NCBI GenBank assembly: GCA_947384095.1
Contig: CANDFU010000022.1
Coordinates: 1-11,905 of the forward strand
Source of the DNA: an uncultured Roseburia sp.
Lineage (GTDB): Bacteria > Bacillota > Clostridia > Lachnospirales > Lachnospiraceae
Reading direction: 5' to 3'
Length of the DNA stretch: 11,905 bases
Positions within the stretch are counted from its first letter, which is position 1; every line of letters begins with the position of its first letter. The translations under genes were made by a program, and so were the position numbers. The notes beneath the pieces are model-generated. The model ran no database searches and had not been told where the DNA came from. It saw nothing but the letters and a program-made list of their open reading frames with translations. Positions 1 through 11,905 of the stretch are shown one piece after another.

Positions 1-63
1 CGCAAGACGCGAGGCGATCTCATCTTCCTGTGGTCTTTCTGTTCCGTTCCATTCTTTCAGCAT
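1..63 (-). CDS. Start of an unidentified protein, cut by window edge
   Basis: Only the first 21 codons are visible, beginning MLKEWNGTERPQEDEIASRL, and the frame stays open to the window edge. The ATG at 63-61 is chosen because an AAGGA ribosome site sits 7 nt upstream (71-75), an in-frame TGA lies two codons upstream (67-69), and a strong promoter precedes it. The other ATG nearby (70-68) is in a frame that stops after 16 codons. The visible peptide is hydrophilic and has no signal peptide or recognisable domain. It follows the Hsp70 gene in the same orientation but has its own promoter, so it may be a downstream partner of the chaperone operon or an unrelated unit. Function is not recognisable. 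Confidence 0.6.
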   Translation of the reverse strand, partial: MLKEWNGTERPQEDEIASRLA

Positions 64-157: not shown

Positions 158-1630
158 TTAAAAATTAAGTTTTTTCCTCCCCTTGCTGATATGCCCGTTT
201 TTATCATCCGCGATCACCTCGATCAGTCCGTCCGTCGTCAGCGTCATCTTCGCCGTCACCGACGTCCCCTTAGGCGTCCCCTCGGGCAGATCGAGCACGA
301 CCTCCAGGATATGCTCCGCCGGAACCGCCTCCGGCGCACACTCATCCTCTGTCACGGCCGACTCAAACACTTTAAAGGAAGAAGTCCCCATGTCATCCTC
401 GATCGTGGAAAAGTTGTACTCCCCGGTCTTTGGCAGACGGTCTCCTTTTTTGATCAGATTCACAATAATTTTTTTGACCGGATCCTTGTCGTAATCCTGG
501 TAACAACGAATCCCATAGGAGTAAGCGGCGATGTCGGACACAATGTCGCAGCTCTGCGCATAAATTGCCGCTCCGCAGGCGATCGACTTTTCCGGCTCAA
601 AAATCTGTATCTCCATTTCCGGAAACGCCCCGGCAAGTCCTGCGAGAACCTGGGGCATATTCGAACTTCCGCCCACGCAGACCAGCCGCTTTACACCGGA
701 ACAGCTTTCCTTTTCCACCAGCCGTTTCGTCATCTGTATCGTTTCATTCAGCAGTTCCCCCGTCAGCTCGTCGAACAGCGTCTTTGTAATCTGGATCCGA
801 TACAGCCGTCCGTTTACTTCAACTTTGGCCGTTACCTTGTCGCGGTAGTGATCCCCCGTCTTTTCGCTGAAGGCATGCTTTGCCGATATGGCCGCCCGCT
901 TCGCTTTTTCTTTAAACGCCTTGTTTGTGGAGAGAACCGATCCCGTCTGCTTCTCAAGCTCCCTTAAGATATAAGTCTCCAGCCTGCCGTCCCAGTCCTT
1001 CCCTCCGATGCGCAGCATGTCGGATTCCAGCACTACATATTTTTCTTTTACGTCACTGCGTGCCTCCACCACGGCGACATCACAGGTTCCCCCGCCGAGA
1101 TCATAGACCAGCACTTTTGTGTTATCTTCTAGCGAAGCCTGAAAATAGGCCAGCGCAGCCGCAACCGGCTCCTTGATGAAACCTAAAACGGTAAGCCCCG
1201 GTCCCCCTTCCTCTCTGGGAATCTCCGCAGCCGCGCGGATAAATTCTTTTTCATTGTGCTCAAATGCAGCCGGAACCGATATGACGACGCCCTCCAGGGG
1301 CTCCTCGATCAGTTTTGTCTTTGCGATGGTAAGCGCGGTATCGACGACCTTCGCCAGAATATAGCCTACGATCTCACGCGCCGAAAACGTTCTTCCGTCC
1401 GCCGTGAATGACGAACCAAGCTCCAGCTTTACTTCCCGCTTTAAATTTTTCGCCTCGTCTCCCTGCCCGGCGTCCTCCGCTTCCTCTCCGACCAGGACGC
1501 CTTCCCAGTCGTTATAATAAAATACCGACGGAATGCCATATTTCCCGCTCGGAAGCAGCACAACCTGCGAATCCATATATACTGCCGCCGGCAGTGAAAA
1601 GCTTGTTCCAAAATCAATGCCCAGTTTCAT
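158..1630 (-). CDS. Short Hsp70-family chaperone (DnaK-like, no lid domain)
   Basis: ATP-dependent chaperone of the Hsp70/actin-ATPase superfamily, 490 aa, cytosolic. The ATPase domain is complete: phosphate-1 motif IDFGTS (5-10), EPVAAALAY (154-162), phosphate-2 motif DLGGGTCDVAVV (177-188), GGKDWD (209-214), adenosine motif VGGSSNMPQ (319-327) and ACGAAIYA (351-358). After about residue 375 only a short beta-type substrate-binding region of about 110 residues follows, ending KGRKKLNF. DnaK is about 640 aa, so the helical lid and acidic tail are missing. The ATG at 1630 has GGAGGT 7 nt upstream, whereas an in-frame ATG 18 codons earlier would start inside the GrpE-like gene without such support. 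It follows the GrpE-like gene by 16 nt. Last gene of the vWA/PP2C/kinase operon; it is likely the ATP-driven effector or client handler. Family assignment is certain; the specific client is unknown. Confidence 0.93.
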   Translation of the reverse strand: MKLGIDFGTSFSLPAAVYMDSQVVLLPSGKYGIPSVFYYNDWEGVLVGEEAEDAGQGDEAKNLKREVKLELGSSFTADGRTFSAREIVGYILAKVVDTALTIAKTKLIEEPLEGVVISVPAAFEHNEKEFIRAAAEIPREEGGPGLTVLGFIKEPVAAALAYFQASLEDNTKVLVYDLGGGTCDVAVVEARSDVKEKYVVLESDMLRIGGKDWDGRLETYILRELEKQTGSVLSTNKAFKEKAKRAAISAKHAFSEKTGDHYRDKVTAKVEVNGRLYRIQITKTLFDELTGELLNETIQMTKRLVEKESCSGVKRLVCVGGSSNMPQVLAGLAGAFPEMEIQIFEPEKSIACGAAIYAQSCDIVSDIAAYSYGIRCYQDYDKDPVKKIIVNLIKKGDRLPKTGEYNFSTIEDDMGTSSFKVFESAVTEDECAPEAVPAEHILEVVLDLPEGTPKGTSVTAKMTLTTDGLIEVIADDKNGHISKGRKKLNF

Positions 1631-1637
1631 GCAATTT

Positions 1638-1643
1638 ACCTCC
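1638..1643 (-). promoter_or_regulatory. Ribosome binding site that fixes the Hsp70 start
   Basis: GGAGGT on the minus strand, 7 nt before the ATG at 1630, located between the GrpE-like stop codon (1649-1647) and the Hsp70 start. It rules in the short form beginning MKLGIDFG over the longer in-frame form that opens at 1684. Confidence 0.85.
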
Positions 1644-1646
1644 GCG

Positions 1647-2672
1647 TCATAGCTGAATACGTTCTTTTTGCAGCACAATATCATTATATCGGAAACCCGG
1701 CCTGACGCTCCTTTTTACAACCGCCGTGCGCGCGGAAAAATTATCGGAACCGTCACAGACCTCATGAAACTTCCCGTCAAAAGACGTCCCCTCCACGCTT
1801 ACAATCTCTTCCACGCCAAAAACTGCCAGGGCGTCCGCGATCGAACTCATAAACTCCTCATAATTGAGAACCGCATTGTAATAATCTTCATTTCCGTCCC
1901 TCTCTGCCCGCCCTCTGTGAAACGCATATCCGTCCGCGATCAGGTTATAAATCTCCGTCATCGCGCGCGCAAACCGCAGGACATAATTTTCCGTGAGATT
2001 GTCCGAATAGCACATCAGCCGCTTTAATTCCCTGCCGATATCCGCCTGCAACGCAGACATGGTTCCGATCAGCTCTTTCTGGCTGTGGCGCCACTCCCCT
2101 GCTTCTCTCTGGTTTGCCTCAAGGCGCAGCTTCATCCGCTCCGTACATTCCTGTTCGGCACGAAGGCGCGCATTCACAAAATCAGCTTCCTTTTCCGGAC
2201 CGGAATCTTCCTTACTGTCCTTCTTACCTATGTTCTTCGCTTTCAGGCAGTTTTTTATACCCTCCACGTTTTTCTGAAAATCCGCAAGACGCCGCTCAAA
2301 ACCGGCTTCCTGACAGCCTCCGGCAAACAGGGCCACCTTTCCGTCCCCCATCCTGCCGTCCTCCGGCTCCGGCGCGTCTTCCCCGCGCAGACGCCCGAAA
2401 ACACATGCCGCCGCCTCACACGCATCCGGCAGGCCGGGCCGTCTGCGACGCAGCTGCCCGGCAGCTGCCTTCCCGCCCTTTCGCATCCCTCCGTATACCC
2501 TGTCGGCCTCGGCAAGGAACGGCGACGCCTTGATATCACCGTCCCCTTCCATGAGCTCCTTTACGATCAGATCCACCAGTTTTTCAAAATCGATCCGCCT
2601 TTCCCTGCCCGTCCCGCTCTTGCGTGCGGCATACCGGATACAGACCGCCTCATAAAGCACCAGACTATCCAT
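1647..2672 (-). CDS. GrpE-like nucleotide exchange factor with long N-terminal extension
   Basis: 341 aa. The C-terminal ~135 residues resemble GrpE, the ADP/ATP exchange factor for Hsp70: a helical stretch (about 205-285), then GVEEI (286-290), FDGKFHEV (298-305, compare GrpE FDPxxHEA) and a closing GFRYNDIVLQKERIQL (326-341, compare GYxLxDRVLRPAxVxV). An acidic/basic linker (145-200) with coiled-coil character precedes it. Residues 1-60 form an unrecognised helical region, and 60-130 is an Arg/Gly/Ala-rich, cysteine-containing stretch that looks like linker. Start chosen at 2672 because GAGG lies 6 nt upstream. An in-frame ATG at 2690 (six codons longer) overlaps the kinase stop as ATGA and is a credible alternative through translational coupling. 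It directly precedes the Hsp70 gene, fitting a dedicated exchange factor. GrpE homology is read by eye from the C-terminal motifs; the N-terminal role is unknown. Confidence 0.8.
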   Translation of the reverse strand: MDSLVLYEAVCIRYAARKSGTGRERRIDFEKLVDLIVKELMEGDGDIKASPFLAEADRVYGGMRKGGKAAAGQLRRRRPGLPDACEAAACVFGRLRGEDAPEPEDGRMGDGKVALFAGGCQEAGFERRLADFQKNVEGIKNCLKAKNIGKKDSKEDSGPEKEADFVNARLRAEQECTERMKLRLEANQREAGEWRHSQKELIGTMSALQADIGRELKRLMCYSDNLTENYVLRFARAMTEIYNLIADGYAFHRGRAERDGNEDYYNAVLNYEEFMSSIADALAVFGVEEIVSVEGTSFDGKFHEVCDGSDNFSARTAVVKRSVRPGFRYNDIVLQKERIQL

Positions 2673-2678
2673 CCCTTT

Positions 2679-2682
2679 CCTC
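2679..2682 (-). promoter_or_regulatory. Ribosome binding site favouring the shorter GrpE-like start
   Basis: GAGG on the minus strand sits 6 nt before the ATG at 2672 and 5-8 nt after the kinase stop codon (TGA 2689-2687). The competing ATG at 2690 has only a weak GGTTGGA upstream but overlaps the kinase stop in the ATGA configuration typical of coupled genes. Confidence 0.5.
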
Positions 2683-2686
2683 GCTT

Positions 2687-4030
2687 TCATTCCAACCGCA
2701 AAACATTTAACTGTGCCGTTTTCGGAATAATCCGTATCATCATTCCCTTTTCCACTGCAAACACACTGCCCGGCGGACAGTCTGTCCGGCTTTTGTCCTG
2801 CCCGATCACACACCAGGTCAGCCCGCTCAAATTCCGGATGCCGACTTTTCCTGCCGGCTTATTGTAGAGAATCTTCAGGAAATCTCCGCCGGGCAGGTGT
2901 TTTGAGATCTCTGTGCCCTGCAGGACGTCCGCCACGTAAAGCTTTGCTTCCCGTTTCGCTTCACCGGCGCTTAAAACCTTAAACACAATGCTGTGCCTTC
3001 GCACCGGCACGGCCGCTCCGCACTCAAAACAATGCCCGCTGCCTCCAAACGTCATACATCCGCATGCCCGGCACCTTACAAGCCCGGCCCGAAGCTCTTC
3101 AAAAGCATCCCCCCACGCCTCGTCCGACGGCCGTTCCGCCCGTTTTTCCTCCGGCAGATAAGTGACAAACGTATCGATAAAGAGATTCTGTATCCGCGCC
3201 GGAAGCTTTTTCCAGATCTTTGCCTGCGCCTCCCATTTTACATCCGTGCTGTTTTCGATGGAATTGCGCCGGTCAGACGGATTCCAGATAAACACGGCAT
3301 CCGTCCCATAAATGACTTTCTGCACGTCAATCTCGCAGACATCATGTTTTCTGCAATATTCCCTGGTATACCTGCCCTCAAAAGGGTAACCTCCGACCAG
3401 GAGGCGGAATATATAGACGGCAAACGAAAAGCTGTCCGACCTCTCATCCGGTTTTTTCCCAAGGACGATCTCGGGCGCCCGGTATCCGTAAGTACCGCTG
3501 ATTGTAACCTTCCCGGGATATGCGATATTGTCGTTGTCAATAATTTTCACATCGCCGGTCACGGGATTAAAAAAAATATTTCCCTCGTTGATGTCCTTAT
3601 AACACATACCGTGCGTAGAATGTAGCGCCTCCAGAAAAGAAGACATATTTTTAACGATGCGGCAGATTGCGTCGCAGGAAGGATAAAGCCCCGGCCTTGC
3701 CCATGCCTTTTTTAACGTCGTGTAATCCTTAAGATCCACCAGGTCCATGATATAACCGAAAGAATCCCCCTCCCCTTCGACAATGGCAAGCGGAAAAACC
3801 GCCGTGCTCAGCACGCTGCCGTTTTTATCCCGAAGCTGCCCTTTTGCGATCAGCGTCTCGATATTCTCCCTGATATCGCACGGGTTGCGTTTATAATATT
3901 TGTACGCATAAAACTGCTTCGTGCCGAGATTCTGCACCTGCCAGACTTTCGCCTGTCCGCCCTTCCCCAGGGACTTTACAATTGCGTACTGCTCGCCGTT
4001 TTCTCCTGTGATCATATCGCCTTTTTTCAT
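2687..4030 (-). CDS. Ser/Thr-type protein kinase with zinc ribbon and C-terminal beta module
   Basis: Cytosolic eukaryotic-like kinase, 447 aa, no membrane segment. Visible motifs: glycine loop LGKGGQAKVW (21-30), ATP-anchoring lysine in AYKYY (K44), catalytic loop YKDINEGN (144-151; D146, N151) in place of HRDLKxxN, metal-binding DND (165-167) in place of DFG, APE (185-187), the DxFSFA helix-F aspartate (D199) and a late conserved R300. It is therefore probably catalytically competent. A CxxC-GC...CxxC zinc ribbon (C320, C323, C334, C337) follows, then a beta-rich module (about 364-440) that aligns with the end of the neighbouring phosphatase. The ATG at 4030 is chosen because AAAGGA lies 10 nt upstream and the glycine loop starts 20 residues in; the longer open frame reads into the phosphatase gene. 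The phosphatase stop is 26 nt upstream. Kinase of a TerY-P-type triad; substrate unknown, with Hsp70, GrpE-like and vWA proteins as candidates. Confidence 0.93.
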   Translation of the reverse strand: MKKGDMITGENGEQYAIVKSLGKGGQAKVWQVQNLGTKQFYAYKYYKRNPCDIRENIETLIAKGQLRDKNGSVLSTAVFPLAIVEGEGDSFGYIMDLVDLKDYTTLKKAWARPGLYPSCDAICRIVKNMSSFLEALHSTHGMCYKDINEGNIFFNPVTGDVKIIDNDNIAYPGKVTISGTYGYRAPEIVLGKKPDERSDSFSFAVYIFRLLVGGYPFEGRYTREYCRKHDVCEIDVQKVIYGTDAVFIWNPSDRRNSIENSTDVKWEAQAKIWKKLPARIQNLFIDTFVTYLPEEKRAERPSDEAWGDAFEELRAGLVRCRACGCMTFGGSGHCFECGAAVPVRRHSIVFKVLSAGEAKREAKLYVADVLQGTEISKHLPGGDFLKILYNKPAGKVGIRNLSGLTWCVIGQDKSRTDCPPGSVFAVEKGMMIRIIPKTAQLNVLRLE

Positions 4031-4056
4031 ATGTATCGTTTCCTTTCTGTCCGGAA

Positions 4057-5814
4057 TTAAAACAATTCTGTCTCGTAGCGCACAAAACCACCAGACGGAT
4101 CCGCTTCCGTAAGTACATCCTCTTCCCCACAGGCGACATAAAAAGTCTGACTCCCCTTTAACCGCAGCACCTCGCCGGGCACAATCACCCGCTCCTTCGG
4201 GTATTTCACTTTCCACGGCCGGTCCGATATGTTCCAGAGGCCATAAATCTGCTTTTCGGGGTTGCGGGTGACACGGAGCATCGGAGCGCTTTCCCCGCCC
4301 AGATGGAGATATTTTATGGTCTGCCCCTGATCCATGCATTCATACAGGGGACACTGCAGTTTTCCGCACCGAAGTTTTCCCAGAAAGGCCGGCATCTCTC
4401 TTAATTCCGCAAATCCCCTCCGGTCCGCATCCCCTTCCTCCCACCGGATACCGTCGTCAAAGCAATACAGCGTTCCGTCGTCCTTCAGCTGCAGGGTCCT
4501 CGCAAAATCCTTTGTACACCCGGCGTTTCGCGCGCCCAGATATTGCTCCAGGCTTCTGAGATTTTCAAACACTTTCAGCCAGAATTCATTCGAATAACTG
4601 CTGTCCGTTTCCGCATCCTGAAGACGGGCCAGATATCGCTTCTCCAGCATTTCTCCATTCTCATACAACTCATAAAAACTCTTCACACCTTCGGGCACGA
4701 GATAAGAAGACACCTGCCTTCCGTCCGGCAGCACACATCCTTCCACACTTGCAAGAAGCGTACATCCCGCAACATCCACGTCGCCCTTTCCGGTTCCCGG
4801 AGACGTTTTTCCTCCTCCGATATGGATTTCATAAATCCGGCCGTCTTTTACAGCCGATAAAAGAATCGTCCCGCCGCAGACCCGCTTAAAAATGAGTTCC
4901 TCATACCCCATTCTTTTCAACGCTTCCCGCACAGACACTTCTGCCGGCATTGGATGTGAAAACGCTTCCTGCGCTTTTGCCGGCTGCGGATGCACAAGCA
5001 CGACCGTACAGTCGTCCCCTGTCCGCGCCGACACGTCGATGCCTTCCACCGTAAAGGGATATTCCGGCACTTCCCGCTCCCGCACCTGCGCTGCCAGCGC
5101 CCTGGCATACCGCAGAAACGAATCCTCCCGGTCCAGTTTATCGTAGATTCCGTCGGTCGAGAGCAGCACATGATCAAAAAGGCTCCTCTCATAAACATCC
5201 GTAAACAAAGCATACGCGCCACGCTCCGATGCGAGAGAGTTCGTCTTTGACCCCACTTTCACCGAATGCCGTTTCATAAGCTGCGCGTGTCCCCGCCCGT
5301 CAAAAAGCAAAACCGCGCCGTCGCCAAGCTGCCCCAGCACATAAAAATTCCTCGTGACAGCCGCGAATAAAACCGTCGTCCCATATTTCCGGATAATCTG
5401 TCTTCTGCCGCATCCCTCCCCCGGACGCGCTTCATCATCTTTCAGCACCGCCTGCCTCCAGCGCTCAACCAGCTTCACTTTCATCGCACGGCTTAAAAAC
5501 GCCGCGACAAGCTCACTCTCGTCCGCCCCTCTTTTTTTCATCTCCGCACAGATCTCTTCCGCCAGGCGCGCCGTCTCCTCACACGCCAGCCGCGCACCGA
5601 CGTCGCTTCTGGTATATGCCTCCCCGCCATGCCCGTCCGCCACGGCGGCAAAAAAGAGTTCCGGTGCGATCTCTCTCGCAACGCAATAGTCCTGGCAGGG
5701 CTTTTTTCCCACAACATGGCCGCTCCCGCGTTTTCTCACGTAAAAGGCGCCGCACTTTAAGCCCGGCATACCGATGTTTCCGCAATCCTCCAGGTTTAAA
5801 ACCGGATCCTCCAT
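4057..5814 (-). CDS. PP2C-family Ser/Thr phosphatase with large C-terminal extension
   Basis: Metal-dependent protein phosphatase (PPM/PP2C), 585 aa. The catalytic domain covers about 20-275 with all signature sites: QD (41-42), DGHGG (60-64), GTT (145-147), GDG (164-166), STDG (219-222) and GDD (266-268), so metal-binding aspartates are intact. Residues 280-585 are extra relative to a minimal PP2C. They contain a glycine-rich beta region (about 310-375), a charged helical stretch (about 380-430), clustered cysteines (C483, C488, C493) and a terminal beta module (about 490-562) that aligns with the end of the neighbouring kinase. The ATG at 5814 has GAGG 4 nt and GGAGG 11 nt upstream; an ATG 10 nt earlier is in another frame. 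Second gene of the operon, 86 nt after the vWA gene, with a hairpin in between. It presumably reverses the kinase's phosphorylation. No membrane segment seen. Confidence 0.93.
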   Translation of the reverse strand: MEDPVLNLEDCGNIGMPGLKCGAFYVRKRGSGHVVGKKPCQDYCVAREIAPELFFAAVADGHGGEAYTRSDVGARLACEETARLAEEICAEMKKRGADESELVAAFLSRAMKVKLVERWRQAVLKDDEARPGEGCGRRQIIRKYGTTVLFAAVTRNFYVLGQLGDGAVLLFDGRGHAQLMKRHSVKVGSKTNSLASERGAYALFTDVYERSLFDHVLLSTDGIYDKLDREDSFLRYARALAAQVREREVPEYPFTVEGIDVSARTGDDCTVVLVHPQPAKAQEAFSHPMPAEVSVREALKRMGYEELIFKRVCGGTILLSAVKDGRIYEIHIGGGKTSPGTGKGDVDVAGCTLLASVEGCVLPDGRQVSSYLVPEGVKSFYELYENGEMLEKRYLARLQDAETDSSYSNEFWLKVFENLRSLEQYLGARNAGCTKDFARTLQLKDDGTLYCFDDGIRWEEGDADRRGFAELREMPAFLGKLRCGKLQCPLYECMDQGQTIKYLHLGGESAPMLRVTRNPEKQIYGLWNISDRPWKVKYPKERVIVPGEVLRLKGSQTFYVACGEEDVLTEADPSGGFVRYETELF

Positions 5815-5857
5815 CCCGCCTCATGCCTCCCGCCTATCTGGTATTTTTATAATGAAA

Positions 5858-5890
5858 GAAAGAGACACCGATACCTCTGATGCCTCTTTC
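5858..5890 (-). terminator. Hairpin between vWA and phosphatase genes (possible attenuator)
   Basis: GAAAGAGGCA (5890-5881 on the minus strand) pairs with TGTCTCTTTC (5867-5858): ten pairs including one G-U, with a 13-nt loop. It is preceded by an A-run (AAAAAATGG) but followed only by TTTCATTATA, a broken U-tract, so it would be at best a leaky terminator or an RNA processing/stability element. Read on the plus strand it is followed by CCATTTTTTA and looks more terminator-like, but no plus-strand gene ends here. Confidence 0.4.
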
Positions 5891-5900
5891 CCATTTTTTA

Positions 5901-6596
5901 TCATTCGTCCTCTCCCCAGTCGGGGTCGCCCAGGTCAATCACATCCTCGTCATCGGTAATGCTGGAATACATGCTGCTCACTGCGACCCAGTTGATCACA
6001 CTGCCCAGGTCCATCGCCTTATCCACCTCAAAAATCAACGGCTGCTGCTGGTCTGCGATCAGCCCGACAGATGCAAACTCCACAAGCTCATCTCTGTTAT
6101 AATCCTCCACGCCGATCGCCACTCTCGTGACCTTTTCCTTTCCCGTATTCCCGGAAAGCTTCTGCTTCATCTCCTCAATGGCGTCCAGATAATCCCCATG
6201 CTCGCCCGGATTACAATACCCGTCCGTGATCAGGATCACAACCGGGTGAAGCGCATGCGCGCCGAGATACTGCTTTCTGAGCGCCTTGTTTGCCTCCCGG
6301 ATCGCCTTGGGCGTGCTCGTCCCGCCGACGACGTCTAAGTCCTGCCATACCACTTCGCCGATCTCTTCGCCCTTCTCAACCGTGCCCACTTTCCACACCG
6401 CCTCGTCGCTGAACGCTATGATACGCAGTTTTATATCGACACACTCGTCTTCCGCCATTTTCATCAATGTACTCTTGAGCGCCGGAATCGCATGATTGAG
6501 CTGTGCAATACGTCCGTTCACCATCGAATATGAATTGTCCAGAAGAAGAATCAGATTTAACTCTTCCCTTGTTATAATACCGTCTCTGTTCGCCAT
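5901..6596 (-). CDS. TerY-like von Willebrand factor A domain protein
   Basis: 231-aa stand-alone vWA protein, close to the usual TerY length. The metal-dependent adhesion site is complete: DNSYS (D20, S22, S24), GGTST (91-95, supplying the threonine) and ITDG (D125). The Rossmann-like core runs to about residue 195, followed by a short tail that ends in a very acidic cluster (about 215-231). No signal peptide or membrane helix, so it is cytosolic. The ATG at 6596 has AGGAGG 5 nt upstream. It is the first gene after the promoter at 6687-6715 and heads the phosphatase/kinase/GrpE/Hsp70 run. In TerY-P triads the vWA protein is thought to scaffold or recruit partners through the metal site, and that is the likely role here. 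The acidic tail may be a docking or chaperone-recognition segment (inference). Confidence 0.92.
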   Translation of the reverse strand: MANRDGIITREELNLILLLDNSYSMVNGRIAQLNHAIPALKSTLMKMAEDECVDIKLRIIAFSDEAVWKVGTVEKGEEIGEVVWQDLDVVGGTSTPKAIREANKALRKQYLGAHALHPVVILITDGYCNPGEHGDYLDAIEEMKQKLSGNTGKEKVTRVAIGVEDYNRDELVEFASVGLIADQQQPLIFEVDKAMDLGSVINWVAVSSMYSSITDDEDVIDLGDPDWGEDE

Positions 6597-6686
6597 CGTA
6601 TCCTCCTACGCCGACGTGACGATGTCCACGCCGCACCGTTTTCATTCTGTCCGTGTATACGGGAACCCCCTTATTTTTCCATGAAC

Positions 6687-6715
6687 ATTTTATCACAAAG
6701 TGCGGCCTTGCACAA
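6687..6715 (-). promoter_or_regulatory. Promoter of the vWA-phosphatase-kinase-chaperone operon
   Basis: On the minus strand TTGTGC (6715-6710), 17-nt spacer, TAAAAT (6692-6687), with TG one base upstream of the -10 (extended -10). The predicted start is near 6680, giving a leader of about 80 nt to the vWA ATG. The -35 is weak (3 of 6), so activity would rest on the extended -10 or on an activator. It shares the 17-nt spacing and TGN extension of the promoter at 110-138. Confidence 0.6.
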
Positions 6716-6840: not shown

Positions 6841-6888
6841 ATGCAAAGCGTAAGAATTTATGAAATGATATTTTATTTAAATAATCAG
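6841..6888 (+). pseudogene. Possible N-terminal remnant of a YafY/WYL-type HTH regulator
   Basis: On the plus strand, GGAGG (6829-6833) is 7 nt before an ATG that opens MQSVRIYEMIFYLNNQ. This resembles the first helix of YafY/WYL-type regulators, which in Clostridia often begin MQxxRLFEMxYxLL. After roughly 6888 the frame runs antisense to the phosphopantetheinyl transferase and stops at 6966, so no helix-turn-helix follows. The combination of a good ribosome site, a family-like start and an abrupt end at the neighbour's 3' end suggests a gene cut by recombination. It could also be a chance short frame, since it is only 16 residues of signal. Confidence 0.35.
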
Positions 6889-7515
6889 ATGACACATCAC
6901 AAGTACTGCCTTTTCCCGCACCTCATACACAAACGAAATATCCGAATATTTTTCCGCAAAGGATAACACCTTTTCTGATACTTCCAGCCCGACCACGCCT
7001 TTTTGGGGATTCATGGAATCCGTCCTGACCGAAGGAATCCCGTACCTGAGCCCGATCCCGAGCGCTTTTGTAAAGGCCTCCCCGACCGCCCAGGCCAGAC
7101 AGGAATCCACCGTGCGGACGCGTCCTCTCTGCACCGCCACATCAACCCCGATCGCATGATCTGCAAAACCGGCGAAAACAATCCCGGCATCGTGTGAGAT
7201 CGAAACGGCATAATCCGACGGCACACCGTTGACATAAAGCTGTGGTTTTCCGGACTGTTCCCCATATCTTTCGTTCAGAATACAGATATCTGCGTATTCC
7301 ACTCCCAGCTCCCTCGACAGCAGGTATTTCAGCGCAGATCTGCCGCCCAGATATTCCATGCCCTTCCTTTTTCTCTTCCGATAAAGGGGAAGTTCTCTCG
7401 CATGCAGCAGGGAACTGTCCGGATTCCGCATCCTTATATCCTCTGACACAATCACATTTTTTTCCGTGTGAAAACATCCTTTTATTATGGATGCACACAG
7501 AACATGATCAGGCAT
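6877..7515 (-). CDS. 4'-phosphopantetheinyl transferase (Sfp/HetI/AcpS superfamily)
   Basis: Transfers the phosphopantetheine arm from coenzyme A to a serine on carrier proteins. 212 aa, in the range of two-lobed Sfp-like enzymes. Motifs: GGRSALKYLLSRELG (57-71), SISHD (105-109), IGVDVA (122-127, metal-binding D125) and WAVGEAFTKALG (142-153, matching WxxKExxxKxxG with E146 and K150 kept but the usual first lysine replaced by G145). A basic run RKRKRK (46-51) precedes the first motif. The ATG at 7515 overlaps the radical SAM stop by 8 nt and has no clear ribosome site, so coupled translation is likely. ATG at 7431 (M29), with GAGG 8 nt upstream, is an alternative but would remove the first beta strand. 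It closes the biosynthetic-type block and implies a carrier-protein-dependent pathway whose synthase is not in view. Confidence 0.85.
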   Translation of the reverse strand: MPDHVLCASIIKGCFHTEKNVIVSEDIRMRNPDSSLLHARELPLYRKRKRKGMEYLGGRSALKYLLSRELGVEYADICILNERYGEQSGKPQLYVNGVPSDYAVSISHDAGIVFAGFADHAIGVDVAVQRGRVRTVDSCLAWAVGEAFTKALGIGLRYGIPSVRTDSMNPQKGVVGLEVSEKVLSFAEKYSDISFVYEVREKAVLVMCHLII

Positions 7516-8557
7516 AAAAATTCTGCAGGTCCCCGGACCAGTTTACGTCGATTCCTTCTTTCTGCCCCCTGTCGCGCAGTTCTTTCAGCAGCTCTGCAAT
7601 CAGAATTTCCTTTTCCGTCTGAAAGAATACGCTTACAGGGTATACGTCCAGCATTTTCGCCGCCGGCATCGGAAGCGTCATCGGCGTCAGATTCAGCTCG
7701 TCCGCGCACCCCGTCTCAATGATATATTCCAGAAGCCCCTCTAAGGAATCCAGGTTTTTCGAATTTACCACCGCCGCAATCACAATCCGAAGCCCGCTGT
7801 GTTTTCTCTCCCTGCACGCATTCAGACGCGTCAGATTGTCCAGAAGGATTTTCAGATCACCGCTTCTTAAAAAACGGAACAGTTCCGCATCGACGGTATC
7901 ACAGCTCACATAAATTTTATCCGCCTCCGCCAATGTATCAATCTCTTCGTCGGACAAAGCTTTCGCAAAATTTGAAAAAAGCGAAATCCTTAAGCCGGGA
8001 TACGTCGCTTTTATCCTTCGGATGATGCGGGTCCAGCCGGCAACCAGTGTAAACTCTCCAATGCCTGTGGTTGATATTTCCCGGACTCTCCAGGCTTTCG
8101 TAAGGACATCCAGCAGATCGAAAAATTTCTCAACCCCCATATCCGCAATCCAGTCTTTAAAGGCGGATGTACTGTGTAAACAGTAGATACATTTCAGATT
8201 GCACCTGGTCGTGATTTCAAAAAAAAGCTCGTCCGCATGATCGATCCTGCATATCTCTTCCGCGTCGTCTGTGATCCGCGGGATACAGCCCTCCTTAAAT
8301 AATTCCCCCACAAAATCACTCACCGTTTCATATTCCCTGAGCATCATACAGCCTTTGCAGAAACCGGGCAGTTTTTCCGCGATCATCTCACGGCGGAGCC
8401 GGTACACCTCGTCGCAGTTCAGGATCTCCCCCGCCTTTCCGGGATCGCAATGCTCCGGGTCAATTTTCTGCGTGCGCGACGGTTTCATACAGCAGAACCA
8501 GACCCGGCCGTTATTATGCACATAAATCTGCTTCCACAACTGGATACAGGCCTTCAT
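7508..8557 (-). CDS. Radical SAM enzyme with N-terminal SPASM-like region
   Basis: 349 aa. The radical SAM 4Fe-4S motif is C119-xxx-C123-xx-C126, followed by TTGIGEF (163-169) at the GGEP position, so it should cleave S-adenosylmethionine to start radical chemistry. Unusually, the segment before the core looks like a SPASM-type auxiliary cluster region: NGRVWFCC (16-23), GEILN (43-47), LRREMI (54-59) and a CxxC (C67, C70), with further cysteines at 4, 37 and 48. SPASM domains normally follow the core, and here the C-terminus (about 290-349) has no cysteines. The start at 8557 is chosen because AAGGAG lies 9 nt upstream; longer in-frame starts at 8566 and 8620 sit on top of that site or overlap the previous gene. 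Located 28 nt after the FAD oxidoreductase gene and overlapping the phosphopantetheinyl transferase gene. Substrate unknown: peptide, carrier-bound or small-molecule intermediate. Confidence 0.85.
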   Translation of the reverse strand: MKACIQLWKQIYVHNNGRVWFCCMKPSRTQKIDPEHCDPGKAGEILNCDEVYRLRREMIAEKLPGFCKGCMMLREYETVSDFVGELFKEGCIPRITDDAEEICRIDHADELFFEITTRCNLKCIYCLHSTSAFKDWIADMGVEKFFDLLDVLTKAWRVREISTTGIGEFTLVAGWTRIIRRIKATYPGLRISLFSNFAKALSDEEIDTLAEADKIYVSCDTVDAELFRFLRSGDLKILLDNLTRLNACRERKHSGLRIVIAAVVNSKNLDSLEGLLEYIIETGCADELNLTPMTLPMPAAKMLDVYPVSVFFQTEKEILIAELLKELRDRGQKEGIDVNWSGDLQNFYA

Positions 8558-8566
8558 TTTTTTCAT

Positions 8567-8572
8567 CTCCTT
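8567..8572 (-). promoter_or_regulatory. Ribosome binding site that fixes the radical SAM start
   Basis: AAGGAG on the minus strand. It abuts the ATG at 8566 with no spacing and is 9 nt from the ATG at 8557, so the latter is the workable start. The site lies between the FAD oxidoreductase stop (8588-8586) and the chosen start. Confidence 0.7.
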
Positions 8573-8585
8573 TTCCGACTGACAG

Positions 8586-10091
8586 TCATCCGAACAGGAT
8601 ATATTCCCGCATGTCCTCATGCAGCGGATATTGCTGCATGATCAGATTGGCTGTCTTTATACACTCCTGCATCACGCCGTTCACTCCGCCAATCACGGAT
8701 ACCCAGTGACTCGCAAAAAAGAGACGGTCGTACATGCCCTGATTCTGGTGTCTGGAACGGTCATACACATAATCCTGATATTTCTCAAACCCTAAATAGG
8801 CTCCTTTCGTATTCCCGCATTCCCGCTCATAGGTGACAGGCGTTGCCGCCTCCACAAAAACGTAATGTCCCCGCATTCCGGGATAACGCTTCTCCACATC
8901 CGCCAGCACACGTTCCACCAGAAGCCGCTTTTTATCGCTGTATCCCCCGTCCGGCCACCAGTGGTTTTCAAAATCATAAGGCACCAGAATACCGATGCAC
9001 ATCTGTGCGCCTCCTGCCGGTGTGGACGATGCGTCCCGGCTGAATGCGGTAAAACATTGATACCAGTAGCCGTCCGGCAGATTTTCCCCTTCTGTCTGCA
9101 TGACCCTGCGCACTTTCCCGATATTTCTTTTGTCCGGATAGCAGATGACGGAGCCGAAGTCCAGGCCCAGTTCCTCTAACGTGCGGTCGAAGCCAAGCCA
9201 GATGCTCAGACAGGACTTCGATATTTTCCATTTATCCTGCAGACGGTCCACTCCGATCAGACTGCGGTACGTCTTATGGATATCAATGCCGGAAACAATC
9301 ACGTCAAAGGCATATTCCCGCCCGTCCGCCACAATTCCGGTAACCTGGCTGCCCTGTGTGCGGATCTTTGTGACCATGGTATTTTTATGTATGACGCCCC
9401 CGTTTTTTTCAATCTGTTCCACGCACTTTGAAATAATATGGTATGCTCCCCCTGCCGGAACATAGTACTCCCCCTGCCCTTTGATTTCAAAATAGGTCAT
9501 CGGGATGGCAAGCGCCACGCTTTCTTCATCCAGCTCCAGCATTGCAAGAATGATCTCTTTCAACAGCACATTTTCAAAATATTGCTCCACAAACTGTTTT
9601 GCCGTTCTGGATATATTGGGGATATATTTTTTTATTTCCGACGCACAAAGCCCCCGGAACGTCATATCAGCCGCAAATACCTTATTCATAATCTGATAGA
9701 GCTCCGTAATTTCCGCAAAAAAAGCCTCGATCCGTTCTTTTTCTTCCGGAAAATGGCGGATCAGCTCCAGATCCATCCGCTCTGTGCACTGATCAATCCG
9801 GATGTCATCGCCAAACTGGTAATATTCCCTGTACCGCGTCCACGTAAGACGCCCGATCCCTGCCTGCCCGCAGTATCCGTCCACCATATCGGCACAGCTT
9901 TTTGACCCGATCCTTAAGACAGCCGGGTGGATCCGGTACCCCTTCCGCCCGAAAGCCTGGCAGTATCCGCCCGGAATCGGATTCTTATCAAAGATCTCAA
10001 CCTCATACCCCCTCTCCGACAACAGAACCCCCGTAAAAATACCGCCGATGCCGCCGCCCACAATCCCGACTTTTCTTTTTCCCATCGTCAT
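8586..10091 (-). CDS. FAD-dependent oxidoreductase, phytoene desaturase/carotenoid isomerase-like
   Basis: 501 aa, the usual size for CrtI/CrtISO/retinol-saturase-type flavoproteins. The N-terminal dinucleotide fold is clear: VGIVGGGIGGIFTG (8-21) with acidic strand end EIFDKN (32-37), then PIPGGYCQAFGRKGYRIHPA (39-57), the family's 'GG..........G...d.g' region. The C-terminal FAD-contact segment RLFFASHWVSVIGGVNGVMQ (about 463-482) corresponds to the L(F/Y)xxGxxxxPGGGVPGV motif of the family, with G-G-V-N-G retained. No signal peptide. It likely desaturates, saturates or isomerises a lipid-like, polyene or carrier-bound intermediate; the family alone does not say which. ATG at 10091 has AAGG 7 nt upstream; ATG at 10085 is two codons later. 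It starts 11 nt after the permease stop and precedes the radical SAM gene, so these are probably co-transcribed. Confidence 0.88.
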   Translation of the reverse strand: MTMGKRKVGIVGGGIGGIFTGVLLSERGYEVEIFDKNPIPGGYCQAFGRKGYRIHPAVLRIGSKSCADMVDGYCGQAGIGRLTWTRYREYYQFGDDIRIDQCTERMDLELIRHFPEEKERIEAFFAEITELYQIMNKVFAADMTFRGLCASEIKKYIPNISRTAKQFVEQYFENVLLKEIILAMLELDEESVALAIPMTYFEIKGQGEYYVPAGGAYHIISKCVEQIEKNGGVIHKNTMVTKIRTQGSQVTGIVADGREYAFDVIVSGIDIHKTYRSLIGVDRLQDKWKISKSCLSIWLGFDRTLEELGLDFGSVICYPDKRNIGKVRRVMQTEGENLPDGYWYQCFTAFSRDASSTPAGGAQMCIGILVPYDFENHWWPDGGYSDKKRLLVERVLADVEKRYPGMRGHYVFVEAATPVTYERECGNTKGAYLGFEKYQDYVYDRSRHQNQGMYDRLFFASHWVSVIGGVNGVMQECIKTANLIMQQYPLHEDMREYILFG

Positions 10092-10102
10092 AACAAAACC
10101 TT

Positions 10103-11905
10103 TTATCCTTCCATAATTTCACGGTATGATATCTTTTGCAGTTTCCTTTTAAAATACCACAAAATCAGCTCCACAATCCCGACGGTAAGCAGCAGACAGC
10201 ATGCAATGGATACCGGGCTGATACTGACGGGATAAGCAATATCCGAATTTGCAGAAATAATATGAAACATGACCGTACAGAGCACGATCGTATACGGAAC
10301 GGAAATAACAAATCCCGCCACAGCCACCAGCCGGTATCCGTCAATCACAGCCAGATTGCACTCTTTTTGCGTATATCCGTACATTTTCATAAGCGCAATA
10401 TACCTGCGGTTTCCGTTTACCACCCCTGCCAGCGACAGAGACAGGGTTATAAAACCGACCGCAAGCCCGCAGAGGAACAGCATCACAGACAAAATCACAT
10501 AAATACCGGTCGAACGCTCAATCGTCTCCCCGACCTCTTTTCTGGAAGTAACGCTCAGATAAAGCTCCTCGTCAAAAACAATCTCGTTGTCTGTATAAAT
10601 GCCATTATAGTCGTCTTTCCCCAGCCCAAACAGACTGGCCGCCAGCGCTTTTCCCACATAAATATTGCTCCCGTAAACGCTCTGCGAGACTGCGCCGACC
10701 TTTGTATGATACTCCTTATCCTTTAATACGATCGATATCCCGTCTCCTTTGCGCAGACCATATTTAATCTGCATCCACTGATTGATTACGACCCCGTCCA
10801 GCCGTCCGATCTCTATCTCGGCTCCCTGCGTATCATCCAGATGAAGCATGCGTGTATTTTTATTGTCAATCACACAGAGGTTCAGATGATAAAACACCTC
10901 TTCCGATTCCGTCTTCAGACGGACCGGCTCGCACAAATATTTCAGACTGTCCTGATACTTTGTCTCATCATCCTGTACTTCAATAAACCGGACGTCGTTC
11001 TCATAATGATATTCGCTCAGCACAAGCTCCCTGATCCCTGCCGTCATATGATACGTTGTATATGCGAACTGGATCTGGACCCCCAGGGCAAACCCGCCGA
11101 ATAAGACAAAGAAAAGAACCGCCTTTTTGGAAAAAAGCAGCGTCGTCCGGACCCCCTTCAGATAACTTGAAAACTGTATTTTTTTGTTTCTCCAGACGAC
11201 CATTCTGTTTGCAGCGGCGCCGGTCTCATTGCGGATCATCAGGAGAGCCGGTCTGTTTACCTTGAAAAACGCCCACAAAAAAGCAATCACAGTAAAGGCA
11301 AGCGTCGGGACAGCCGCCAGAAACAGCAGATTCTCCGGCACAATCCCCCAATGGGCATACGGAAGGGAAAACATACCGAATACCAGCCCGTAAAACAGAC
11401 CCGCAAGCTGATGCCCGGCAAGATACCCCGTGACCGCCGGAATACCGACGATAAAAAAATAGAAACCATATTTCCCTGCCACTTCAAAATTTGTATATCC
11501 AAGTGCCTTGAGCACGCCGAGATTTTTATACTCTTCCCTGATCTGTCCGCTGATGGTAATCAGCAGCAAAAGAACCGCGACAGAAGCCAGTATGCCCATG
11601 GAAAATCCCATAATAATCTGGTTCATCGTTTTCTGTGAATTTACGGCCGACAGGATCTGCGGGTTTTCTGCACTTTCTAAAAACAAATGAAAATCCTGAT
11701 CCTGTTTCATTTTCTGTGTGTCTCTCTCCGCGCCCTTTCGGAAAAGACCTGCATACGTGACATTCACCGTCTTTGACTTTGTAAACTGTTCAAACGCATC
11801 CGCTTTCACGACTGCGATACACTGTGTTCTTTCGTCATACATTTTCCCCGTATTGTCCACAACAGGGGAAATCTGATCCGGCAGCACGACGATGGCGGAT
11901 ATCGT
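10103..11905 (-). CDS. FtsX-family ABC transporter permease, N-terminus cut off
   Basis: The frame is open across the right edge (TISAIVVLPDQ...), so about 600 C-terminal residues are visible and no start codon is in the window. Two FtsX-type permease units are evident. The first has a membrane helix (visible ~97-118), the cytosolic motif REEYKNLGVLKALGYTNFEV (~123-142) and three more helices (~146-215). The second has a helix at ~262-282, a large extracytoplasmic domain of about 180 residues (~285-465), a helix at ~468-495, the repeat of the cytosolic motif (RRYIALMKMYGYTQKE, ~500-515) and two terminal helices (~526-586). This matches the long double-FtsX permeases that pair with a separate ATPase to export peptides or lipids or to sense antimicrobial compounds. 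No ATPase gene is seen; it probably lies upstream outside the window. Neighbouring biosynthetic enzymes suggest export of, or immunity to, their product. Confidence 0.9.
   Translation of the reverse strand, partial: TISAIVVLPDQISPVVDNTGKMYDERTQCIAVVKADAFEQFTKSKTVNVTYAGLFRKGAERDTQKMKQDQDFHLFLESAENPQILSAVNSQKTMNQIIMGFSMGILASVAVLLLLITISGQIREEYKNLGVLKALGYTNFEVAGKYGFYFFIVGIPAVTGYLAGHQLAGLFYGLVFGMFSLPYAHWGIVPENLLFLAAVPTLAFTVIAFLWAFFKVNRPALLMIRNETGAAANRMVVWRNKKIQFSSYLKGVRTTLLFSKKAVLFFVLFGGFALGVQIQFAYTTYHMTAGIRELVLSEYHYENDVRFIEVQDDETKYQDSLKYLCEPVRLKTESEEVFYHLNLCVIDNKNTRMLHLDDTQGAEIEIGRLDGVVINQWMQIKYGLRKGDGISIVLKDKEYHTKVGAVSQSVYGSNIYVGKALAASLFGLGKDDYNGIYTDNEIVFDEELYLSVTSRKEVGETIERSTGIYVILSVMLFLCGLAVGFITLSLSLAGVVNGNRRYIALMKMYGYTQKECNLAVIDGYRLVAVAGFVISVPYTIVLCTVMFHIISANSDIAYPVSISPVSIACCLLLTVGIVELILWYFKRKLQKISYREIMEG

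Follow-up and report, generated by a model that had tools for sequence, protein, structure and literature searches.

Do a phosphorylation switch and a chaperone pair, encoded one after the other in an uncultured Roseburia sp., work as a single system? We addressed this question on contig CANDFU010000022.1, whose entire length of 11,905 bases is referred to as the window and which belongs to an assembly that is 61.6% complete. Five genes on its minus strand encode, in this order, a vWA-domain protein, a PP2C phosphatase, a protein kinase, a GrpE-like protein and an Hsp70. This module is genuine, and it is conserved: the full five-gene order is found in five of the nine genomes in which this Hsp70 family was detected (G000, G060, G156, G323, and G208). 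That the five genes act as one functional module, in which a TerY-P-type phospho-switch regulates a dedicated chaperone, the lidless Hsp70, along with its GrpE partner, is in our judgement about evenly balanced between true and false. Components of the module are as follows (window positions):

5901..6596, minus strand: vWA-domain protein, 231 amino acids (aa); Pfam VWA 3.4e-10, metal-site residues intact, acidic C-terminal tail
4057..5814, minus strand: PP2C phosphatase with C-terminal pseudokinase and beta-domain, 585 aa; Pfam PP2C_2 2.3e-31 at residues 29-248
4384..4944, minus strand: pseudokinase domain within the PP2C protein, residues ca. 291-477; AlphaFold2 and fold search
4123..4359, minus strand: small beta-domain ending the PP2C protein, residues ca. 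486-564; matches the C-terminal domain of the kinase in profile comparison
2687..4030, minus strand: protein kinase, 447 aa, carrying a zinc ribbon and a beta-domain at its C-terminus; Pfam Pkinase 3.2e-18
1647..2672, minus strand: GrpE-like exchange factor with N-terminal extension, 341 aa; Pfam GrpE 5.5e-9
158..1630, minus strand: Hsp70, 490 aa, comprising a nucleotide-binding and a beta substrate domain and lacking a helical lid; Pfam HSP70 2.1e-46

All five Pfam matches of the complete proteins are above the cut-off. The five same-strand genes and the intergenic gaps of 86, 26, 14, and 16 nt given in a first-pass annotation of this DNA were reproduced at their positions, and the vWA metal site, PP2C and kinase, described there as intact, indeed carry the expected residues or motifs. 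At positions which we take to be those of the active sites, residues D20, S22, S24, T93, and D125 of vWA are invariant in 5/5 aligned loci, K44, D146, N151, and D165 of the kinase in 6/6 aligned sequences, and D6, T9, K68, E154, D177, and T182 of Hsp70 in 8/8. The zinc-ribbon cysteines of the kinase (320, 323, 334, and 337) are likewise invariant in 6/6, while PP2C contains the motifs ADGHGG (59), GDGA (164), STDG (219), and TGDDCT (265). The single promoter proposed for the operon received no backing from a consensus scan, in which 5 promoter-like sites were observed vs 4.7 expected from shuffles, and none was located on the minus strand of the 280-nt gap upstream of vWA. Inspected by eye, this gap shows TGATAAAAT.

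Recurrence was evaluated in nine genomes, each counted once, that is, in the five named above and in G043, G326, G216, and G1337. They combine matches from samples of the order, class, and family with a Roseburia metagenome-assembled genome (MAG); profiles and thresholds differ between samples, and the order-sample surveys of Hsp70 and kinase scored the best first-look candidates per genome, with misses possible. Occurrence is sporadic: the Hsp70 profile matched 7/392 genomes of the order sample, 1/391 of the class sample (the own genome only) and 2/260 of the family sample. Among same-genus genomes the family is present in 1/36, the own one, whereas it was detected in 3/3 genomes of the genus of G156 and in 1/2 of the genus of G208; the family of G043 consists of one genome. 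In the uncultured Roseburia MAG (L033) the five genes are the same, with identities of 98% for vWA and Hsp70, 91% for kinase, 82% for PP2C, and 80% for GrpE. The five-gene adjacency is not limited to one strain, and its recurrence in the same order in other genera and families is more than chance. Genes downstream of Hsp70 differ among three genomes of one genus, being pyrH/frr and a radical-SAM-like gene (both called by eye) and a MoxR-type AAA+ gene (Pfam), as expected of a moving unit.

Two of the remaining genomes are cut by contig ends. G043 has PP2C, kinase and Hsp70 in succession on a contig ending inside Hsp70, with vWA and GrpE not on the available part, and in G326 the 4.1-kb contig with GrpE and Hsp70 is too short for a triad to be seen. 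The triad genes are adjacent also in L033, L048, L050, and L051. An additional gene, here called gene X, is inserted between PP2C and kinase in G156, G323, and G208, and is present at L048:2069-3403, L050:4844-6115, and L051:6194-7510. It looks kinase-like, by eye only; its L048 and L050 copies have no Pfam match, and profile comparison did not link it to the pseudokinase of the window. The PP2C protein of G043 matches the gene X profile at 2e-46, so gene X seems to be fused to PP2C in this genome.

More distant searches gave a broader picture. Hsp70 relatives at 1e-60 number 638, and among the 120 listed, source names point to Selenomonadaceae, Synergistaceae, and an Enterococcus; PP2C protein relatives at E<=1e-10 number 47, including Selenomonadaceae, Phascolarctobacterium, and Solobacterium. 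Among the matches listed, both sets share three exact longest-contig sizes (466642, 34883, and 21613), a coincidence that may point, indirectly, to contigs carrying Hsp70 together with PP2C. A phylum survey at 1e-70 was discarded as too loose, as it matched 296/398 genomes, mainly through DnaK-length frames; among its listed matches the own genome scored 725 bits and the next one 264. Two shorter Hsp70 frames from this survey, in G1063 (beside a weak GrpE match) and G1017, were also rejected as family members, being located on the DnaK side of the tree. No tblastn match at 1e-40 was found in plasmids. In phages 18 records were matched, those listed being 25-29% identical, and viral contigs yielded two distant relatives, L130 and L131, of which L130 has a long branch and is placed with the family in the Hsp70 tree.

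Domain composition of the proteins is informative with regard to their coupling. An AlphaFold2 model and fold search identify the C-terminal domain of the PP2C protein as a pseudokinase. Its presumed beta3 position is His in 40/40 sequences and its catalytic-loop Asp is not conserved, with a DFG-like Asp in 40/40 (positions placed by eye on model strands); lacking the beta3 Lys and a conserved loop Asp, the domain does not conform to the active-kinase type. PP2C frames seen beside ordinary triads have about 270-290 aa, in comparison with the 585 aa of the pseudokinase-bearing protein in the window. Profile comparison relates the kinase C-terminal beta-domain to the end of PP2C (with more rows, probability 74, E 2.9e-5), and the kinase C-terminus to the GrpE N-terminus of L048, L050, and L051 (probability 94, E 1.6e-7), all other domain pairs in the same kinase/GrpE test having a probability of <=14. 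Lists from the fold search for the small beta-domain were filled by kinases. That kinase and PP2C, and in relatives also GrpE, share one beta-domain suggests that these proteins may assemble into a complex. In addition, the C-terminal tail of vWA (window 5901-5950) is acidic, as it is in L048 and L051, and is a possible docking or phosphorylation site.

The Hsp70 family is separate from DnaK in the tree. Its profile residues 3-482 align to DnaK 37-508, and in the alignment seven rows are complete, measuring 484-496 aa and stopping directly behind the beta substrate domain with no helical lid following it; one further row is cut by a contig end. A match to the PADLOC model PDC-M61B was obtained at 4.2e-4. 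Two longer Hsp70 frames, of 634 and 586 aa, exist elsewhere in the own genome, and the operon Hsp70 is therefore an extra copy. The start of the GrpE-like gene was set at 2672, where six aligned homologues begin; if it began at 2690 instead, it would share 4 nt with the kinase gene. The GrpE profile matches the PDB GrpE 4ani at 5.7e-9, and the Pfam domain is above cut-off in the window, L048, and L050. Its AlphaFold2 model is poor (predicted local distance difference test score 55.9), too poor for use. Only 8 relatives were found at 1e-10, and the GrpE-like protein is therefore little conserved or badly found.

Its recurrence in bacteria beyond one family makes it probable that the unit is a genuine machine for stress or defence, and the coupling of triad and chaperone is likely functional. 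The likeliest role, judging by analogy with TerY-P, would be that of a mobile stress- or conflict-response cassette. In such a machine the switch would be built from a vWA adaptor, a zinc-ribbon kinase, and a PP2C with its own pseudokinase, and the beta-domain could dock kinase, phosphatase, and exchange factor onto one partner or ligand. A signal of stress or of an invader might be sensed via vWA, the zinc ribbon or the beta-domain, whereupon the activated kinase would phosphorylate one of three candidates, namely the exchange factor, the tail of vWA or a shared client. GrpE would then alter nucleotide exchange on Hsp70, and the lidless Hsp70 may assemble or dismantle a complex. PP2C would reset the switch, with the pseudokinase placing it on the kinase or the substrate. 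A more far-reaching proposal is that of a phospho-gated chaperone, in which a dedicated set of kinase, phosphatase, and pseudokinase would switch the ATP cycle of Hsp70 via a kinase-type docking domain on GrpE; it would assemble a defence or stress complex without a GTPase and form a class distinct from TerY-P and from NTP-dependent conflict systems. We consider this proposal rather doubtful.

Several observations weigh against a dedicated module of this kind. The partners that the first-pass annotation had wired together also occur apart. The kinase profile at 1e-30 matched 44/392 order genomes in 49 places, and 39 of these 44 genomes have no match to this Hsp70, leaving 5/44 in which the kinase is beside it. 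Kinases in the five Hsp70-linked places, whose sequences are in the profile, score 654-821 bits, and those in the other 44 places <=274 bits. No match to this Hsp70 or GrpE was found around 25 of these 44 other kinases (about 1.5 kb on each side where the contig allows; 12 of them in 14.6-19 kb). These places look like ordinary triads, with kinase, vWA, and PP2C in this order; vWA was recognized by profile in 14/25 and 8/12. Conversely, GrpE-Hsp70 pairs are without a triad in the stretches read of G216 and G1337. In the Hsp70 tree, triad-linked members fall in two parts, not in one clade, and the triad-less G216 groups beside the window's part. The kinase tree separates the window pair, which has a long branch, from the four remaining kinases linked to Hsp70; a single clade of Hsp70-linked kinases was not rejected (p-AU 0.201, approximately unbiased test). 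Both trees, which carry long-branch warnings, therefore indicate that the link between triad and Hsp70 is old with losses, or that it arose more than once. No nuclease or toxin family was found among the five proteins by Pfam, and a defence island is not evident among neighbouring genes. PP2C and GrpE have no PADLOC match, and matches of the kinase to the PD-T4-6 and mad6 kinase models (best 5.5e-20) we take as general kinase likeness. Finally, the profile test detected no kinase-type beta-domain in the window GrpE.

In G216 (L052:7052-18733) the GrpE-Hsp70 pair lies beside HD/CYTH and DUF2971 proteins, and in G1337 (L132:79-10766) beside triple-AAA+ and radical SAM proteins, resembling a cassette with changing partners.

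An alternative explanation is that the locus is a loose neighbourhood bringing together two independent mobile units, the TerY-P-like triad and the GrpE-Hsp70 cassette, neither of which controls the other. It draws on the triads that mostly lack this Hsp70, the triad-less pairs of G216 and G1337, and trees that do not show a single origin of the link, but it does not account for the identical order and close spacing in different families, the kinase-type beta-domain fused to GrpE in relatives, or a PP2C enlarged by a pseudokinase. We regard it as somewhat unlikely. Of the proposed wiring, the full order in five genomes and the kinase-type domain on GrpE in three stand in its favour; against it, no match to this Hsp70 was found in most order-sample genomes with a triad-type kinase. 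The coupling is real but modular, because each partner set is encountered without the other.

Sequences on both sides of the module were also examined:

1..63, minus strand: start of a PPK2 gene, flank, judged outside the system; full gene in L033
6877..11905, minus strand: end of a cluster resembling fatty acid synthase (FAS) and type II polyketide synthase (PKS) clusters, flank; phosphopantetheinyl transferase (PPTase)-like, radical SAM, FAD oxidoreductase, and FtsX permease genes

The gene starting at 63, suggested earlier as a possible recurring neighbour, has its own promoter-like match at 138-110. Its full copy (L033:11568-13037) matches Pfam PPK2 at 8.3e-133. PPK2 is present in 19/40 congeners, the own genome not being counted as only 63 bases of the gene remain at the contig end, in contrast to the Hsp70 family in 1/36 same-genus genomes; for this reason it is considered a flank. 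PPK2 flanks were not syntenic in six congeners examined for an empty site.

On the other side, the FAS/type II PKS-like cluster adjoins the module (L041:2428-20000 and window 6877-11905). Upstream of the module, L041 encodes a carboxyltransferase, an acyl carrier protein (ACP), two ketosynthase-family proteins, a FabA-like dehydratase, a thioesterase, a BtrH-like protein, and a class III aminotransferase, followed by an ABC ATPase and permease, FAD oxidoreductase, radical SAM, and PPTase-like genes; the PPTase-like gene of the window is below the Pfam cut-off (E 0.044). A recombinase of the phage-integrase family (L041:1560-2399, Pfam 2.9e-20) is located just upstream of the cluster, with which it possibly forms an island. 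No tRNAs were found in the window, L033, L041, L042, L053, L050, or L051, and L048 has two, neither adjoining the module. In G043, of another family, a ketosynthase/ACP/acyltransferase/PPTase/ABC cluster stands beside PP2C-kinase-Hsp70 (L053:3580-14471).

The module could be a dedicated chaperone and regulator of the adjacent cluster, governing how the enzymes or the exporter of the cluster are assembled or how active they are. This is consistent with its position behind a co-directional cluster in the window lineage and with the second cluster in G043. However, the G043 cluster is on the opposite strand, no cluster was recognized by eye in the stretches of G156, G323, and G208 (20, 12.6, and 11.1 kb, with 0.4 kb before vWA in G156), and the association was noticed post hoc without a control count, so we hold this explanation to be very unlikely. 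Least probable, and barely credible to us, is membership in the conflict systems centred on GAP1-N2 GTPases: both component sets, including a kinase with zinc ribbon and beta-rich domain, are named for such systems in PMC7159879, but that text calls the themes non-overlapping, and PF20013, sought in the nine genomes, several of them incomplete, was never at the locus and was found in 1/9, on another contig.

Kinase/PP2C/vWA triads are common in the order and include reported antiphage systems. To our knowledge, no phosphorylated target of such triads has been named. A triad tied to a chaperone pair, with a docking-like domain on kinase, phosphatase, and the exchange factor of relatives, designates GrpE, Hsp70, and the vWA tail as candidate targets, and with five proteins the question becomes testable. 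Two further objects of study come with the operon, namely a family of Hsp70s without a lid and a PP2C fused to a pseudokinase.

In the titles, abstract openings, and passages covered by the literature search, with supplements and most subscription papers beyond reach, no description of the five components in one operon was found. With the housekeeping DnaK-GrpE machine the module shares a nucleotide-binding domain, a beta substrate domain, and a GrpE, whereas its Hsp70 is about 490 aa long, lidless, and apart in the tree, and no J-domain is present among the nine window proteins by Pfam. CoCoNuT restriction systems are described in PMC11090510 as centred on McrBC-type GTPases and nucleases, with TerY-P and Hsp70-like proteins. 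Types II and III-A combine the two as in the window. Extremely low hydrolysis is expected there for the Hsp70-like domains, whereas the window Hsp70 retains its ATP-site residues and has its own GrpE. Neither McrB/McrC nor HEPN was detected among the nine window proteins by Pfam, nor McrB/McrC among 11 scanned L041 proteins (the rest of L033, L041, and L042 was viewed by eye). GAP1-N2 systems (Kaur et al. 2020, PMC7159879) resemble the module in both component sets and in the kinase architecture; in that paper Hsp70/GrpE and kinase/PP2C/vWA are separate themes, the latter restricted to actinobacteria, whereas both are in one operon in the window. The module also resembles TerY-P triads, for which three protein types including a kinase with C-terminal zinc ribbon (PMC11090510) and activity against T7-like phages (PMC7699616) are reported. 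The resemblance claimed in the first-pass annotation is supported by the zinc-ribbon kinase, vWA, and PP2C of the window. The module differs in its order, vWA-PP2C-kinase instead of the kinase-vWA-PP2C of ordinary triads examined, in a vWA that matches the PADLOC TerY model only weakly (E 0.0055), and in the addition of GrpE, Hsp70, and a PP2C-borne pseudokinase.

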